Origin: Alphaproteobacteria bacterium | GTDB lineage: Bacteria; Pseudomonadota; Alphaproteobacteria; Acetobacterales; Acetobacteraceae | DNA: 64,000 nucleotides | Direction of reading: 5' to 3' | Assembly: GCA_020850755.1 (NCBI GenBank) | Contig: JADZEB010000016.1 | Location: 1-64,000, forward strand | Part shown: in pieces, positions 7,908 through 64,000 of the stretch | How positions within the stretch are numbered: the stretch's first letter is position 1 | Layout: each line of letters opens with the position of its first letter | Made by a program: the position numbers and the translations under genes | The notes under the pieces: generated by a model | Database searches by the model: none | What the model was told of the DNA's origin: nothing | What the model saw: only the letters and a program-made list of their open reading frames with translations

Positions 7908-8558
7908 TCAGGCGCCGTAGGTGCCGGGCTCCTTGAGCGAGACGGCGAAGCCGCGCGCGGTGGCGGGGCGGGCCATCATCGCCTCGTACCAGCGCCTGAC
8001 CTGCGGATAGTCGGCGAGATCGACCTGGTGGCGCGGATGCCGCCAGGCCCAGCCGAGAATGGCGAAATCGGCGATGCTCGGCTCGCCTTCGGTGGCGACG
8101 AAGTCGCGCCCGGCAAGCCGGCGGTCGAGCACGCCGTAGAGCCGGCGCGTCTCCTTCATGTAGCGATCGAGGCCGTAGGCGCGCTTCGCCTCGTCCTCGA
8201 GCGCGATGAAGTGGTGCACCTGGCCCGGCATCGGGCCGAAGCCGCCCATCTGCCACATCAGCCATTCCAGCACGGGGATGCGCGCGCGCAAGGAGCGCGG
8301 CAGGAAGCGGCCGGTCTTCTCGCCGAGATAGAGCAGGATCGCGCCCGACTCGAACACGCTGATCGGCGCGCCCCCCGGCCCCTGCTGATCGATGATCGCC
8401 GGGATGCGGTTGTTGGGGCTGATCTTGAGGAACGCCGGCTCGAACTGCTTGCCGGCCGAGATGTCGATCGGATGGACGCGATAGGCGAGCCCCATCTCCT
8501 CGAGCACGGGGCTGATCTTGCGCCCGTTCGGCGTGTCCCAGGTGTAGAGGTCGATCAT
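7908..8558 (-). CDS. Nu-class glutathione transferase (YfcG-like)
   Basis: A 216-residue GST paralogue of the downstream gene. The N-terminal domain begins MIDLYTWDTPNGRK with Thr9 and Asn11 in the nu-class positions, cis-Pro in RIPAIID and the ESGAILLYL glutathione-contact segment. The C-terminal helical domain carries PSIADFAILGW. The second half, around WLMWQMGGFGPMPGQ, matches YfcG-like enzymes better than the neighbouring paralogue does. Likely role: glutathione-dependent disulfide or peroxide reduction in the cytoplasm. It lies 9 bases downstream of the AT-rich gene at 8568-9500, which looks foreign, so co-transcription with that gene may be incidental. Confidence 0.9.
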   Translation of the reverse strand: MIDLYTWDTPNGRKISPVLEEMGLAYRVHPIDISAGKQFEPAFLKISPNNRIPAIIDQQGPGGAPISVFESGAILLYLGEKTGRFLPRSLRARIPVLEWLMWQMGGFGPMPGQVHHFIALEDEAKRAYGLDRYMKETRRLYGVLDRRLAGRDFVATEGEPSIADFAILGWAWRHPRHQVDLADYPQVRRWYEAMMARPATARGFAVSLKEPGTYGA

Positions 8559-8567
8559 TGGTGATTC

Positions 8568-9500
8568 CTAGATCATAAGAAGGCGATATTTGCCTGCAAG
8601 CTCTCTAGACCAAGCATCGAAGCGCTGCGATATAGCATCAAGAGTGGGCGAAAGGCTATCGTAATCACATACAAGATACTTACTTATACTTGGAACAAAG
8701 CCGCCGGCCCCTCTGACCGCACGACATTTCAGTATGCCCACTTTTGCAATGAATGGCTTCGAGTTATGGCGAAAATAGACCAAAGACGGACTATTACGAA
8801 CTACGATTGGTACGATCAACCTAATTATACAAGCACCAGTTTTCGTATATCTCTCTATCTCTTTAGATTCATAATCCGATTTTGTATTATTCCACGCCTC
8901 CGCCGCCTTCAAGAGATCAATATTTTCATTCCGCAATCCCTCCTGTTCGAACTTCAATGCGCTTGCCTCCTTTGAAAGCAAGTCCGCCTCTTTCTTTTTT
9001 ATACTCATCCAGCGGCCTGGATCTTTAACGATACTCATTACCTTCTGTACAAAAGTAATGCGGCAGGCGGAGCCGGCAAAAATGTCCTTAAAACCAATCC
9101 CGACCATATCAAAATCTTGCTTCAAATTGTTCTTGGAGATAACGATATCGTTGCCGTCCGGCCCCCTCATAATCCTTCTGCTAGTGGTATAGCCGCACCA
9201 GATGTCTTCGTGCGCACCGCTAGAAGTATAGTTCTGGAAAAACAAATAGGGATCCCGCGACCGCTTCACGGAAATTACAAAAATTAGTCTTGCAAAAATA
9301 TTAGGTCCAAGCATAATGCATTTTCTGGCTATAATATCCATCTCTCTTGTTTTTTGTGTTTGCATGTCTTCATAATAGAAAGGTTGGTCGATCAAATAGT
9401 TTTTCTCGAGCAACAACTCGGCCACCCGCGCCTCAAAAGGCCATCCCTCACGATCCTCGAGGTGCCTAAGCACTAGTCTCTCGAATGCACCCATTCTCAT
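8568..9500 (-). CDS. Unrecognised 310-residue protein, possible PD-(D/E)XK nuclease-like; AT-rich, probably acquired
   Basis: I do not recognise a named family. Residues 20-90 have the outline of a restriction-endonuclease-like core: a helix with E23/E28 (PFEARVAELLLEK), then R52-E53-M-D55 in REMDIIA, then a hydrophobic strand ending S77-V-K79 (FVISVKRS), resembling E...D...(E/S)xK. Residues about 168-215 are Lys/Glu-rich and probably coiled coil (KKKEADLLSKEASALKFEQE). The C-terminal part begins with hydrophobic IIRLIVPIVVRNSP and ends GKYRLLMI. The gene is strikingly richer in A and T than both flanks and uses codons (ATA, AAA, AAT, AGA) rare in its neighbours, indicating horizontal transfer. 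It stands alone, so a defence or nuclease role is only a guess. Confidence 0.6.
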   Translation of the reverse strand: MRMGAFERLVLRHLEDREGWPFEARVAELLLEKNYLIDQPFYYEDMQTQKTREMDIIARKCIMLGPNIFARLIFVISVKRSRDPYLFFQNYTSSGAHEDIWCGYTTSRRIMRGPDGNDIVISKNNLKQDFDMVGIGFKDIFAGSACRITFVQKVMSIVKDPGRWMSIKKKEADLLSKEASALKFEQEGLRNENIDLLKAAEAWNNTKSDYESKEIERYTKTGACIIRLIVPIVVRNSPSLVYFRHNSKPFIAKVGILKCRAVRGAGGFVPSISKYLVCDYDSLSPTLDAISQRFDAWSRELAGKYRLLMI

Positions 9501-9528: not shown

Positions 9529-10998
9529 CTAGGACAGCTTCTTCTTCAGCACATCGTTGACGAGTGCCGGGTTGCCCTTGCCCGCCATCGCCTTCATCAC
9601 CTGGCCGACGAAGAAGCCGAACAGCTTGTCCTTGCCCGAGCGATACTCGGCCACCTTGTCGGCGTTCTTCGCCATCACGGCATCGACCGCCGCCTCGATC
9701 GCGCCGGTATCGGTGACCTGGCGCAGCCCCTCGGCTTCGACGATCGCGGCCGGGTCGGGATCGGTGCCGGCCTCGATCATCGTCTCGAACACCTGCTTGG
9801 CGATGCGCCCGGAGATGGTGTTGTCGGCCATCAGGTCGAGCAGCCGGCCAAGATTGCCGGCCGAGACCGGGCTGTTCTCGATCGAGCGGCCGGTCTTGTT
9901 CAGCGCGGCGAACAGATCGCCCATCACCCAGTTGGCGGCAAGCTTGGCATCGCGCCCCTTGGCCACCGCCTCGTAATAGGCGGCGGTCTCCTGCTCCAGC
10001 ACGAGCACGCCGGCATCATAGGCCGAGAGGCCGAAATCGCGCATGTAGCGCGCCTTGCGCGCATCGGGCAGTTCCGGCAGGCCGCGCTTCAGTTCCTCGA
10101 CCCAGGCTGGATCGAGCACCAGCGGCAGCAGGTCGGGATCGGGGAAGTAGCGGTAGTCGTGCGCATGCTCCTTGCTGCGCATCGAGCGCGTCTGGCCCTT
10201 GTTGGCGTCGTAGAGCCGCGTCTCCTGCTCGACCGCCCCGCCCTCCTCCCACACCCGCACCTGGCGCAGGGCCTCGACCTCGATCGCCTGCATGACGAAG
10301 CGCACCGAGTTGACGTTCTTCACCTCGCAGCGGGTGCGGAAGCCCTCGCCCGGCTTGCGCACCGACACGTTGACGTCGCAGCGCATGGAGCCTTCCTCCA
10401 TGTTGCCGTCGCAGGTGCCGAGATAGCGCAGGATGGTGCGCAGCTTGCGCAGGTAGGCGCCCGCCTCCTCGGGGCTGCGCATGTCGGGCTCGGAGACGAT
10501 CTCCATCAGCGCCACCCCGGCGCGGTTGAGGTCGATCAGGCTTTTCGCCGGATGCTGGTCGTGCAGGCTTTTCCCGGCATCCTGCTCCAGGTGCAGGCGC
10601 GTGATGCCCACCTCGCGCGTGGTGCCGTCGGGCATGTCGAGCAGGATCGTGCCCTTGCCCACGACCGGCCGCGAATACTGGCTGATCTGGTAGCCCGCCG
10701 GCAGGTCGGCGTAGAAATAGTTCTTCCGGTCGAACACCGAGACGAGGTTGATCTCGGCGTTCAGGCCGAGGCCGGTGCGCACCGCCTGGGCCACGCATTC
10801 GCGGTTGATCACCGGCAGCATGCCGGGGAAGGCCGCATCGACGAACGAGACCTGGGTGTTGGGCTCGGCGCCGAAGGCGGTCGCCGCGCCCGAGAACAGC
10901 TTGGCATTGCTGATGACCTGGGCATGCACCTCGAGCCCGATCACCACCTCCCATTCGCCGGTATCGCCGCTGACGCGGTAGGGCTTGGCCTCGCTCAT
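9529..10998 (-). CDS. gatB: Aspartyl/glutamyl-tRNA(Asn/Gln) amidotransferase subunit B
   Basis: A 489-residue subunit of GatCAB, which converts Glu-tRNA(Gln) (and Asp-tRNA(Asn)) to the amidated form. GatB binds the tRNA and performs the kinase step. Recognisable signatures are [11 protein letters not shown] near residue 20, [32 protein letters not shown] and the C-terminal YqeY-like helical domain ending [28 protein letters not shown]. Length matches the family. The order gatC-gatA-gatB on the minus strand, with 3 bases to gatA, makes a single operon. Its presence implies the indirect route to Gln-tRNA or Asn-tRNA. Confidence 0.97.
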
Positions 10999-45488: not shown

Positions 45489-46070
45489 ATGACCGCATCC
45501 CCCGCCACCCAGCCACCGGCCCGCCTGCCGGTGCCCACCCGAGAGACGCTCAGCCCAGCCCAGCAGCAGGTCTGGGACGCGATTGCCTCGGGGCCGCGCG
45601 GCGGGGTGCGCGGGCCGTTCCTGGCCCTCCTGCATAGCCCGGAACTCGCGAACCGCGTGCAGCATCTGGGCGAGTATCTGCGCTACGGCAGCACCCTGCC
45701 GCCCCGCCTGTCGGAACTCGCGATCCTGGTCACGGCGCGGGCCTGGACCTGCCAGTATGAATGGTTCGCGCATGAACCCCACGCGCTGAAGGCGGGACTG
45801 CCGCAGCGAGTAATCGACTCGATCAAGGACGGGCAACGCCCTGATTTTGCAGCAGAAGACGAACTTGCCCTCTACGATTTCGCAGCCCAGATGCATCGCG
45901 ACCGACGGGTTGACGATGCAACTTATGCGCGCGCAGCGCACGCGTTCGGGCCCCAAGGCGTGGTCGATCTTGTGGGTATTCTTGGCTACTACACCTTGAT
46001 TGCGATGACCCTGAATGGCCACCAGATTCCCCTACCCGCCGGCGCTACTGCACCTTTAGCAGCGCGGTAG
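45489..46070 (+). CDS. Carboxymuconolactone decarboxylase-family protein
   Basis: A 193-residue all-helical protein of the CMD/AhpD family. The central signature is LRYGSTLPPRLSELAILVTARAW followed by CQYEWFAHEPHALKAGL; the second redox Cys of AhpD (CxxC) is absent, as in many decarboxylase-like or orphan members. The 5' region 45327-45488 has no obvious gene. Members act as gamma-carboxymuconolactone decarboxylases or as peroxidase partners, but without pca genes or the CxxC pair neither function can be assigned. Confidence 0.85.
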   Translation: MTASPATQPPARLPVPTRETLSPAQQQVWDAIASGPRGGVRGPFLALLHSPELANRVQHLGEYLRYGSTLPPRLSELAILVTARAWTCQYEWFAHEPHALKAGLPQRVIDSIKDGQRPDFAAEDELALYDFAAQMHRDRRVDDATYARAAHAFGPQGVVDLVGILGYYTLIAMTLNGHQIPLPAGATAPLAAR

Positions 46071-46226
46071 GACACAAGCTTAAACGGTTACTCGAGGACA
46101 CGCGGATGCCCGTCAACCAGGCCGCCCGACGATACCTGGGGATTGAATCTTTGTTTAATGCGGGAATCTCGATTTCCGAAGCGATGGGGCTTGCATACGT
46201 CTCTAAATTGATATATCCATACCGAT

Positions 46227-47591
46227 ATGCGACTCTCTGGCGGCATCCTCGCTCCCGCTGCGTCTGACCGCTCCAGCCCACCCGCGAAGGTTGGCGGCAA
46301 GGGCCTGGGCGGAACGGCAGGCCTCGCCAACAGCTTCGGCCAGCTCCAGCCCGAGCATATTCCCGCCGCGTTGCTGTTCGGCTTCGACCATGAAACCTCG
46401 GCGCGCATCGCCGCAGCCTTGGCTGCCGACTTCCCCAGCCTGCCCCTTTATCTGGCCGAAGAACATGATGCCCAGGCGCTGCTGAGCGGGCGCGGTCCAC
46501 GCCCGATCCTGGTCTGCGGCCACGCCGCAGGCCAGCTCGACGGCGTTGCCGCCGCCGCCCAGCTCGCCAACGGACCAGCCGCCTGCCCGGTGATCGTGTT
46601 CACCCCGCATGCGGATGCGGCGCTGGCGGTGGCCGCCCTGCGCGCCGGGGCGGCGGATTGCGTCACGGACGATCTCGGCCCCTGCACCGCGCTCCGCCAG
46701 GCGGTGGCGCGCCAGCTCCGCCACCCGCCGCGCCCGGTGCCGGCCCCGCTCCTGCCTTCACCCGACCTTGCGCCGGGCGAGGCGACGCCGGATGCGGACT
46801 CGGCCGACCTCTTGTCGCTCCAGGCCGAGCTGCGCGAGGCCCTGTATGAAGGCCGGTTGCAACTCCACTACCAGCCGCGCGTCGATCTCGCCACGCGTCG
46901 CGTGGTCGGCGCCGAGGCCCTGCTGCGCTGGCCCCATCCGCGGGCCGGCATGATCAGCCCGGCCGTGTTCATCCCGCTGGCCGAGCGCAGCGGGCTGATC
47001 CTCGATATCGGCCGCTGGGTTGCCGCCAGCGCCTGCGCCGATGCCGCCGCCTGGGACATGATCGGCCTGTCTCGGCCGATCACGATCTCGATGAATGTCT
47101 CCTCCCGCCAGCTCGAGGATCGGCGGCTGGCCACAGACCTGTTGCATGCCATGGCGGAATCCGGCCTGCCGCCCGAGCTTCTGGAGATCGAGATCACCGA
47201 AACCCGCGCGCTCGATACCTCGGGCGATTCGCTGCTCGCGCTCACCGCCGTGCGTGATCTCGGCGTGTCGGTGGCGCTGGATGATTTCGGCACCGGCTTC
47301 TCCTCGCTCAGCCATCTGCGCCGGCTGCCGCTGACCACGCTCAAGATCGACCGCACCTTCGTGCGCGACCTCCCGCATGACCGCGACGACGCCACGATCG
47401 TACGCGCGCTGGTGGATATCGGGCGCGGGCTCGATCTGCGCGTCGTCGCCGAAGGGGTGGAAACGGCCGAGCAGCTCGCGTTCCTGCGCGAACTGGGCTG
47501 CGCCGAGGGCCAGGGCTATTTCTTCTGCCCGCCGGTTTCGGCCGACGCGCTCGCCGAGCGGATCGGGCGCATCCAGAACGCCCCGGCCTGA
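46227..47591 (+). CDS. EAL-domain cyclic-di-GMP phosphodiesterase with N-terminal receiver-like domain
   Basis: A 454-residue protein. Residues about 45-165 look like a degenerate receiver (ALLFGFDHETSARIAAALAAD, CPVIVFTPHADAALAVAALRAGAADCVTDD) without a clear phospho-acceptor Asp. Residues about 200-450 form an EAL domain: LHYQPRVDLATRRVVGAEALLRW, ISMNVSSRQL, EIEITETRAL, VALDDFGTGFSSLSHL, LKIDRTFVRDL, VVAEGVETAEQLAFL and GCAEGQGYFFCPPV. All usual metal and catalytic residues are present, so c-di-GMP hydrolysis is likely. It could oppose PleD (25859-27253). The first 40 residues are low-complexity and the true start could lie further in. Confidence 0.87.
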   Translation: MRLSGGILAPAASDRSSPPAKVGGKGLGGTAGLANSFGQLQPEHIPAALLFGFDHETSARIAAALAADFPSLPLYLAEEHDAQALLSGRGPRPILVCGHAAGQLDGVAAAAQLANGPAACPVIVFTPHADAALAVAALRAGAADCVTDDLGPCTALRQAVARQLRHPPRPVPAPLLPSPDLAPGEATPDADSADLLSLQAELREALYEGRLQLHYQPRVDLATRRVVGAEALLRWPHPRAGMISPAVFIPLAERSGLILDIGRWVAASACADAAAWDMIGLSRPITISMNVSSRQLEDRRLATDLLHAMAESGLPPELLEIEITETRALDTSGDSLLALTAVRDLGVSVALDDFGTGFSSLSHLRRLPLTTLKIDRTFVRDLPHDRDDATIVRALVDIGRGLDLRVVAEGVETAEQLAFLRELGCAEGQGYFFCPPVSADALAERIGRIQNAPA

Positions 47592-63643: not shown

Positions 63644-64000
63644 CTAGTCGTCGGCGCGGAAAGCGCCTTCGAGCCAGATCGGCGCGCCCTCGGGCAGGGC
63701 GATCATCACGTCGAAGCGGCAGTCGCAGCCGGCAAGCTCGGGCCGCTCGGCCAGCGCGATCTCGGCCGCGGCGACCAAGCGGCGGCGCTGCGCCGGACTG
63801 ACCGCCTCGGCGCCATCGGCCGCGCTCATGCGTGCCTTGACCTCGACGAAAAGCACGAGCCCGTCGCGCCGGGCCAGGAGGTCGATCTCGCCCGCAGCCG
63901 TGCGCAATCGCTGCGCCAGGATGGCGAAGCCGGCGGCCTCCAGCACGCGTGCGCAAAGCGCCTCGGCCGCGCGACCTGCCCTCTCGGCGCGACGGCCGCG
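63644..64000 (-). CDS. YraN/UPF0102-family protein (5' end outside window)
   Basis: A small protein with a nuclease-like fold. The minus-strand frame is open to the window edge: it continues upstream of a Met at 63946 with RAGRAAEALCARVLEAAGFAIL, which is the usual family N-terminus, so the true start is beyond base 64000. The core TAAGEIDLLARRDGLVLFVEVKAR contains the E...D...ExK pattern of PD-(D/E)XK nucleases. The C-terminal part ends CRFDVMIALPEGAPIWLEGAFRADD. The role is unknown; family members are often beside rsmI. It converges with comM. Confidence 0.88.
   Translation of the reverse strand, partial: RGRRAERAGRAAEALCARVLEAAGFAILAQRLRTAAGEIDLLARRDGLVLFVEVKARMSAADGAEAVSPAQRRRLVAAAEIALAERPELAGCDCRFDVMIALPEGAPIWLEGAFRADD

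Follow-up and report, generated by a model that had tools for sequence, protein, structure and literature searches.

A diverged lone gene between gatB and a GST gene in an Acetobacteraceae contig belongs to an uncatalogued family that is PD-(D/E)XK-like and carries an unusual (S/E)xK motif

The window analysed here, which is the whole 64,000-nucleotide stretch of Acetobacteraceae DNA, contained a single horizontally acquired gene that is inserted between two ordinary genes, gatB and a GST gene (Table 1). On balance we favour, with modest confidence, the explanation that it encodes a stand-alone nuclease of the PD-(D/E)XK fold, acting as a single-gene endonuclease that would attack invading DNA and be carried as mobile-element cargo.

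A composition count gave the gene, 8568-9500 on the minus strand, a GC content of 0.443 and a GC3 of 0.489, compared to a GC3 of 0.91-0.94 for gatB, gatA and both GST genes. Across the 64 kb the GC content of 500-base windows had a mean of 0.704 (sd 0.046), and the only ones below 0.58 were the gene's own, besides a second, mild dip to 0.57 at 45751-46250. Shuffling the bases of the same letters 1,000 times produced a longest open stretch of 191 codons, compared to the 310 of the gene. The sequence-only reading of this DNA had described a lone AT-rich gene differing from both flanks in base composition and codons; its coordinates, strand and length of 310 amino acids were confirmed, as was the difference from the flanks.

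The stop codon of gatB lies 28 bp before the start of the nuclease-like gene, the end of which lies 9 bp before the start of the GST gene, and all three genes are on the minus strand. A survey of 40 relatives, searched with the GST protein, revealed that the GST gene comes immediately after gatB, at a distance of ~10-40 bp, in L075, L079, L082, L083, L084 and L086. These empty sites show that the nuclease-like gene is an insertion in the lineage of the window. No second copy of the gene was found in the window's own genome and no partner gene was found at the locus, in agreement with the earlier description of a gene sitting between GST and gatB without partners. Two other relatives had different content in the gatB-GST gap, as judged by eye: a GC-rich ORF of 266 amino acids resembling a polysaccharide deacetylase in L080, and a GC-rich, reverse-strand ORF resembling a small membrane protein in L071.

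Table 1. Positions of the gene, its predicted parts and its flanking genes in the window
Feature	Position	Strand	Basis or remark
Whole gene, AT-rich acquired ORF	8568..9500	(-)	310 aa + stop; TAG at 8568-8570, ATG start
Residues 20-147, predicted alpha-beta-beta-beta-alpha-beta PD-(D/E)XK-like nuclease core	9060..9443	(-)	AlphaFold; Mrr_cat profile alignment
E23, helix-1 glutamate	9432..9434	(-)	56/56; aligns with Mrr helix Glu
D55, catalytic-position aspartate in REMD	9336..9338	(-)	56/56; aligns with Mrr catalytic Asp
S77, position of (D/E) in (D/E)xK	9270..9272	(-)	Ser 48/56, Glu 8/56
K79, catalytic-position lysine	9264..9266	(-)	56/56
Residues 170-220, Lys/Glu-rich long helix (predicted coiled coil)	8841..8993	(-)	AlphaFold, pLDDT ~73-87
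Residues 224-309, predicted C-terminal beta-rich domain + final helix	8574..8831	(-)	AlphaFold; conserved in family
gatB, 5′ flank of insertion (upstream on minus strand)	9529..10998	(-)	gatB-GST adjacency in relatives
GST gene, 3′ flank of insertion	7908..8558	(-)	Orthologues directly after gatB in relatives

Used as a direct query, the window protein had no match in Pfam, PADLOC, PHROGs, NCBIfam, PDB sequences, plasmids, phages, viral contigs or genome contigs, and no PADLOC 2.0.0 model matched it at E<=5. A whole-genome search revealed one distant relative, L002 (E 2.5e-5), from which the family was reached stepwise (the window protein to L002, then to L006 and L007), the steps via L002 and L006 being needed. 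L003 (E 0.009) and the weak matches L008-L010 and L098-L100 were left out as relatives. Members were found on plasmids of Priestia, Leptospira and Enterobacter, with further members on seven viral contigs and 48 genome contigs, and they spanned Pseudomonadota, Bacteroidota, Bacillota, Cyanobacteriota, Myxococcota, Nitrospirota and other phyla; 14 of 5,426 E. coli genomes contained the family. A profile of the relatives, built without the window protein, matched the window ORF at E=8e-12 in a set of 2,549 sequences comprising all window ORFs and 2,000 shuffles. None of the 2,000 shuffles and no other window ORF was matched, except for the version of this ORF that runs from its upstream stop. 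The window protein shared 16-23% identity with its relatives and had diverged far more than any other member, its end branch in the tree being 7.5. A scan of 50 members produced no convincing Pfam, NCBIfam or PADLOC match, those to PADLOC being isolated and weak, and a literature search found the accessions of the E. coli, Priestia and Leptospira members named in no paper. As judged by these profile matches, the homologues and the window protein are one uncatalogued, widespread family. The sequence-only reading had called the gene the best candidate in the window for an undescribed system; what stood of this is an uncatalogued nuclease family, and a demonstrated system did not follow.

Seven positions, G19, E23, Y43, R52, E53, D55 and K79, were invariant in all 56 aligned homologues. 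E23, E28, E53, D55, S77 and K79 were located where the sequence-only reading had placed them, and the E23/E28, E53-x-D55 and S77-x-K79 groupings that it had picked out as nuclease-like were borne out for E23, E53, D55 and K79, whereas E28 lay outside the conserved columns. Position 77 was Ser in 48 of the 56 sequences and Glu in the other eight, which makes the family motif E..D..(S/E)xK. D55 and K79 occupy the catalytic Asp and Lys positions on adjacent strands, as in PD-(D/E)XK proteins; the acid expected two residues before the Lys is replaced by S77 in the window protein.

AlphaFold (AF2), run on the window protein with an alignment of 50 homologues, returned a pTM of 0.73, with pLDDT of ~90 for residues 20-80 and ~50 for residues 123-147, whereas a run on the single sequence was uninformative (pLDDT 31.6). 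The predicted elements (H20-32, E41-45/50-54, E56-65, E68-80, H123-133 and E138-147) correspond to the PD-(D/E)XK topology, with residues 85-121 forming a low-confidence insertion within the predicted core. Following the core, a long helix pair was predicted at 170-205 and 209-220, which is partly an extension with gaps in short relatives, and this is succeeded by the beta-rich end; both agree with the coiled coil and second domain proposed earlier. Foldseek gave no PDB match at E<=0.001, the best being at E=0.2, and between E 0.2 and 5 PD-(D/E)XK proteins recurred in the list, which included R2 endonuclease, AF1548, Hjc, MspJI, NotI and EcoRV. A fold search against viral proteins likewise produced only non-significant matches, several of them PD-(D/E)XK proteins.

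Profile-profile comparison with Mrr_cat, using a profile built from Mrr_cat sequences collected in this analysis, scored 29.5 (E 1.5e-5 as a single comparison), compared to a maximum of 8.6 for 60 column-shuffled profiles; the hhalign probability for the family against Mrr was only 57%. In this alignment E23, D55 and S77-x-K79 fell on the Mrr helix Glu, catalytic Asp and QxK. UPF0102 scored 17.8 (shuffled maximum 6.1) and the GST control 4.5, whereas membership of NERD (PF08378) was rejected because its profile score of 15.0 was below the shuffled maximum of 17.1. The invariant residues, the predicted fold and the Mrr profile alignment together support the nuclease core that the sequence-only reading had proposed, and the predicted fold is of the PD-(D/E)XK type and not the unrelated one that would have spoken against that proposal. 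We regard the predicted PD-(D/E)XK fold of the family as well supported.

The window protein had no Pfam match to Mrr_cat (PF04471) above the curated cut-off and one of the 50 members matched it at E 0.048; members also matched NERD (nine) and UPF0102 (five) weakly, and all of these matches were below the curated cut-offs. We take NERD, UPF0102 and Mrr_cat to belong to the PD-(D/E)XK fold group; UPF0102/YraN and NERD are PD-(D/E)XK-fold families with an Ex..D..ExK core. UPF0102/YraN (PF02021) resembles the present family in that its profile scored above all shuffles and some members matched it weakly. A match to UPF0102/YraN was also seen at the end of the window (63704-63967). The best profile match was to Mrr_cat, the type IV restriction nucleases such as EcoKMrr and MspJI, which share with the family the order of helix Glu, Asp and x-x-K, in which a non-acidic residue precedes the Lys. 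The family differs from them in having Ser or Glu where Mrr has Gln, so that it does not contain the PD-QxK site carried by EcoKMrr and MspJI (PMC12707154). The QxK of these two enzymes means that a non-acidic residue at position 77 does not by itself imply a dead enzyme. CCGG-family type II enzymes (NgoMIV, Cfr10I and BsaWI) also lack the usual acid before the Lys and have a relocated acid, in the pattern PDX21-53KX12-13E (PMC4652773). The D55-x23-K79 spacing of the window protein is within the CCGG range. A relocated Glu of the CCGG type was rejected, as no acid was conserved 12-13 residues after K79 in the family and window residues 91-93 are Y-T-S.

The Ser-type branch of the family has a conserved Asp ~18 residues after K79 (the D97 column), where the window protein has H-E-D instead. 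With the Glu-type members the window protein has in common P231, V78 and a short C-terminus, and in the tree it was placed on the longest branch beside them, with weak support. S77 could thus have arisen separately from the Ser of the large branch, and in the window copy it may mark either convergence on a chemistry that works equally or the loss of a metal ligand. The second of these would make the window gene a dead or decaying copy, in which an E-to-S change at position 77 left a protein that only binds DNA or drifts. Such a Ser among features otherwise of the Glu type, the very long branch with its low identity to relatives and the frequency of truncated or frame-shifted copies in the family speak for this explanation. 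We nevertheless consider it unlikely, since the gene has kept 310 codons without a stop along with all the other invariant residues, Ser at 77 is normal in 47 other members from several phyla and compatible with purifying selection, and Mrr and MspJI work with Gln at the same position (PMC12707154).

Comparison of the member sequences indicates that the family is under purifying selection: dN was ~0.2 between members, with dS saturated in six of the seven pairs compared, so that a dN/dS ratio (0.08) was obtained for a single pair. Truncated or frame-shifted copies, one of them in E. coli MS14386, were found and included L006, L012, L035, L067 and L095, which suggests that family genes are frequently lost. 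Conflict genes are typically patchy, mobile and often decayed, but these traits are no proof of defence.

Tyrosine integrase or recombinase genes made up 10 of the 287 ORFs within 3 kb of a member and four of the 425 ORFs further out within the same loci, which served as the control (Fisher p 0.025); six of the ten nearby integrases were within 300 bp of the member. In the two E. coli genomes that were read, the member is in a tRNA-Asn island where it adjoins an integrase, together with a MobQ relaxase, and the Prodigiosinella member comes after tmRNA and an integrase. In E. coli D7 (L094:11959-16101), the member of which has 367 amino acids (WP_023155921.1), a 530-amino acid gene with C-x-x-C and HFAHR motifs lies between the integrase and the member; it resembles CoiA-like proteins by eye and had no PADLOC match. 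The member of an uncultured Porphyromonadaceae (L029:7375-14493) lies inside a type I restriction operon in the order hsdM-hsdS-X-hsdR, overlapping the hsdS stop and ending 5 bp before hsdR. On an Enterobacter hormaechei plasmid (L013:7287-9062) two small HTH genes and the member interrupt a methionine-salvage (mtn) cluster. Many members, like the window copy, stand alone among metabolic or housekeeping genes with no adjacent defence gene. Homologues confined to housekeeping contexts would have told against the sequence-only reading; the neighbourhood survey instead included homologues beside integrases, on plasmids and viral contigs and in a type I restriction operon.

The frequent adjacency of tyrosine integrases could also mean that the protein is a DNA-processing nuclease of the mobile element, serving junction resolution, end processing, integration or replication and not defence. 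The PD-(D/E)XK fold includes the Hjc resolvases, which were among the weak fold and sequence matches, and one member is beside a Y-family damage-repair gene. However, the integrases near different members do not form a single orthologous partner and are missing within 3 kb at most loci, no element surrounds the window copy and one member is inside a type I restriction operon, so we consider this role improbable. No conserved partner gene was found among the 959 neighbouring ORFs of members. As to a toxin-antitoxin arrangement, there was neither a conserved neighbour family nor an antitoxin gene beside the window gene. This lack of a conserved antitoxin-like neighbour speaks against a nuclease of the suicide or toxin type, which would cut host DNA or RNA once infection occurs, as does the absence of any sequence or structure pointer to RNA or host DNA. 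Such a nuclease would fit a single gene whose coiled coil and second domain could sense or oligomerise, and plasmid relatives do lie among toxin-antitoxin genes, but we give it little credence.

Returning to the stand-alone nuclease attacking invading DNA, the predicted active site would be E23/D55/(S or E)77-x-K79 within residues ~20-147, resembling the E/D/QxK of Mrr. E23, D55 and K79 would carry out metal-dependent DNA cleavage, with S77 in the position of the Mrr Gln. The coiled coil and C-terminal domain would probably serve oligomerisation and recognition of the target or DNA, although this is a guess, and use against phage or other mobile-element DNA is likewise guessed from the genomic contexts. 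A pangenome screen of E. coli described single-locus defences containing PD-(D/E)XK, and it counted 11 systems whose components bind or cleave DNA (PMC9519451); the single-locus defences resemble the present family, by description only, in their stand-alone or short loci and distant PD-(D/E)XK motifs. This explanation is weakened by the lack of a significant Foldseek match, the Mrr probability of 57% and the lack of a catalogued family, as well as by the housekeeping contexts of many members and the position of the window copy as the most diverged member, in which the Ser may reflect a separate loss of the acid. It also counts against it that no known sensor domain or partner that would explain targeting was found. 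Overall, the gene is best read as a mobile single-gene DNA endonuclease, probably with a defensive role. Only tentatively do we extend this to an immune single-gene family with a dominant Ser-x-Lys site (E..D..SxK), in which a metal ligand may have been relocated, spread as integrase-linked cargo across phyla.

What is new is a coherent family, absent from the searched copies of Pfam, NCBIfam and PADLOC, that joins the PD-(D/E)XK nucleases. It has an E. coli representative and is thus open to immediate testing, and the Ser/Glu split at the metal-ligand position raises the testable questions of whether the SxK form is active and whether another acid replaces the lost one. The window gene, as a diverged lone member of this PD-(D/E)XK-like family with its unusual (S/E)xK motif, is a good candidate for experiment. 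Should its role prove to be defence, the family would represent a single-gene system that stands alone and has been overlooked by island-based searches because its members are often alone between housekeeping genes.
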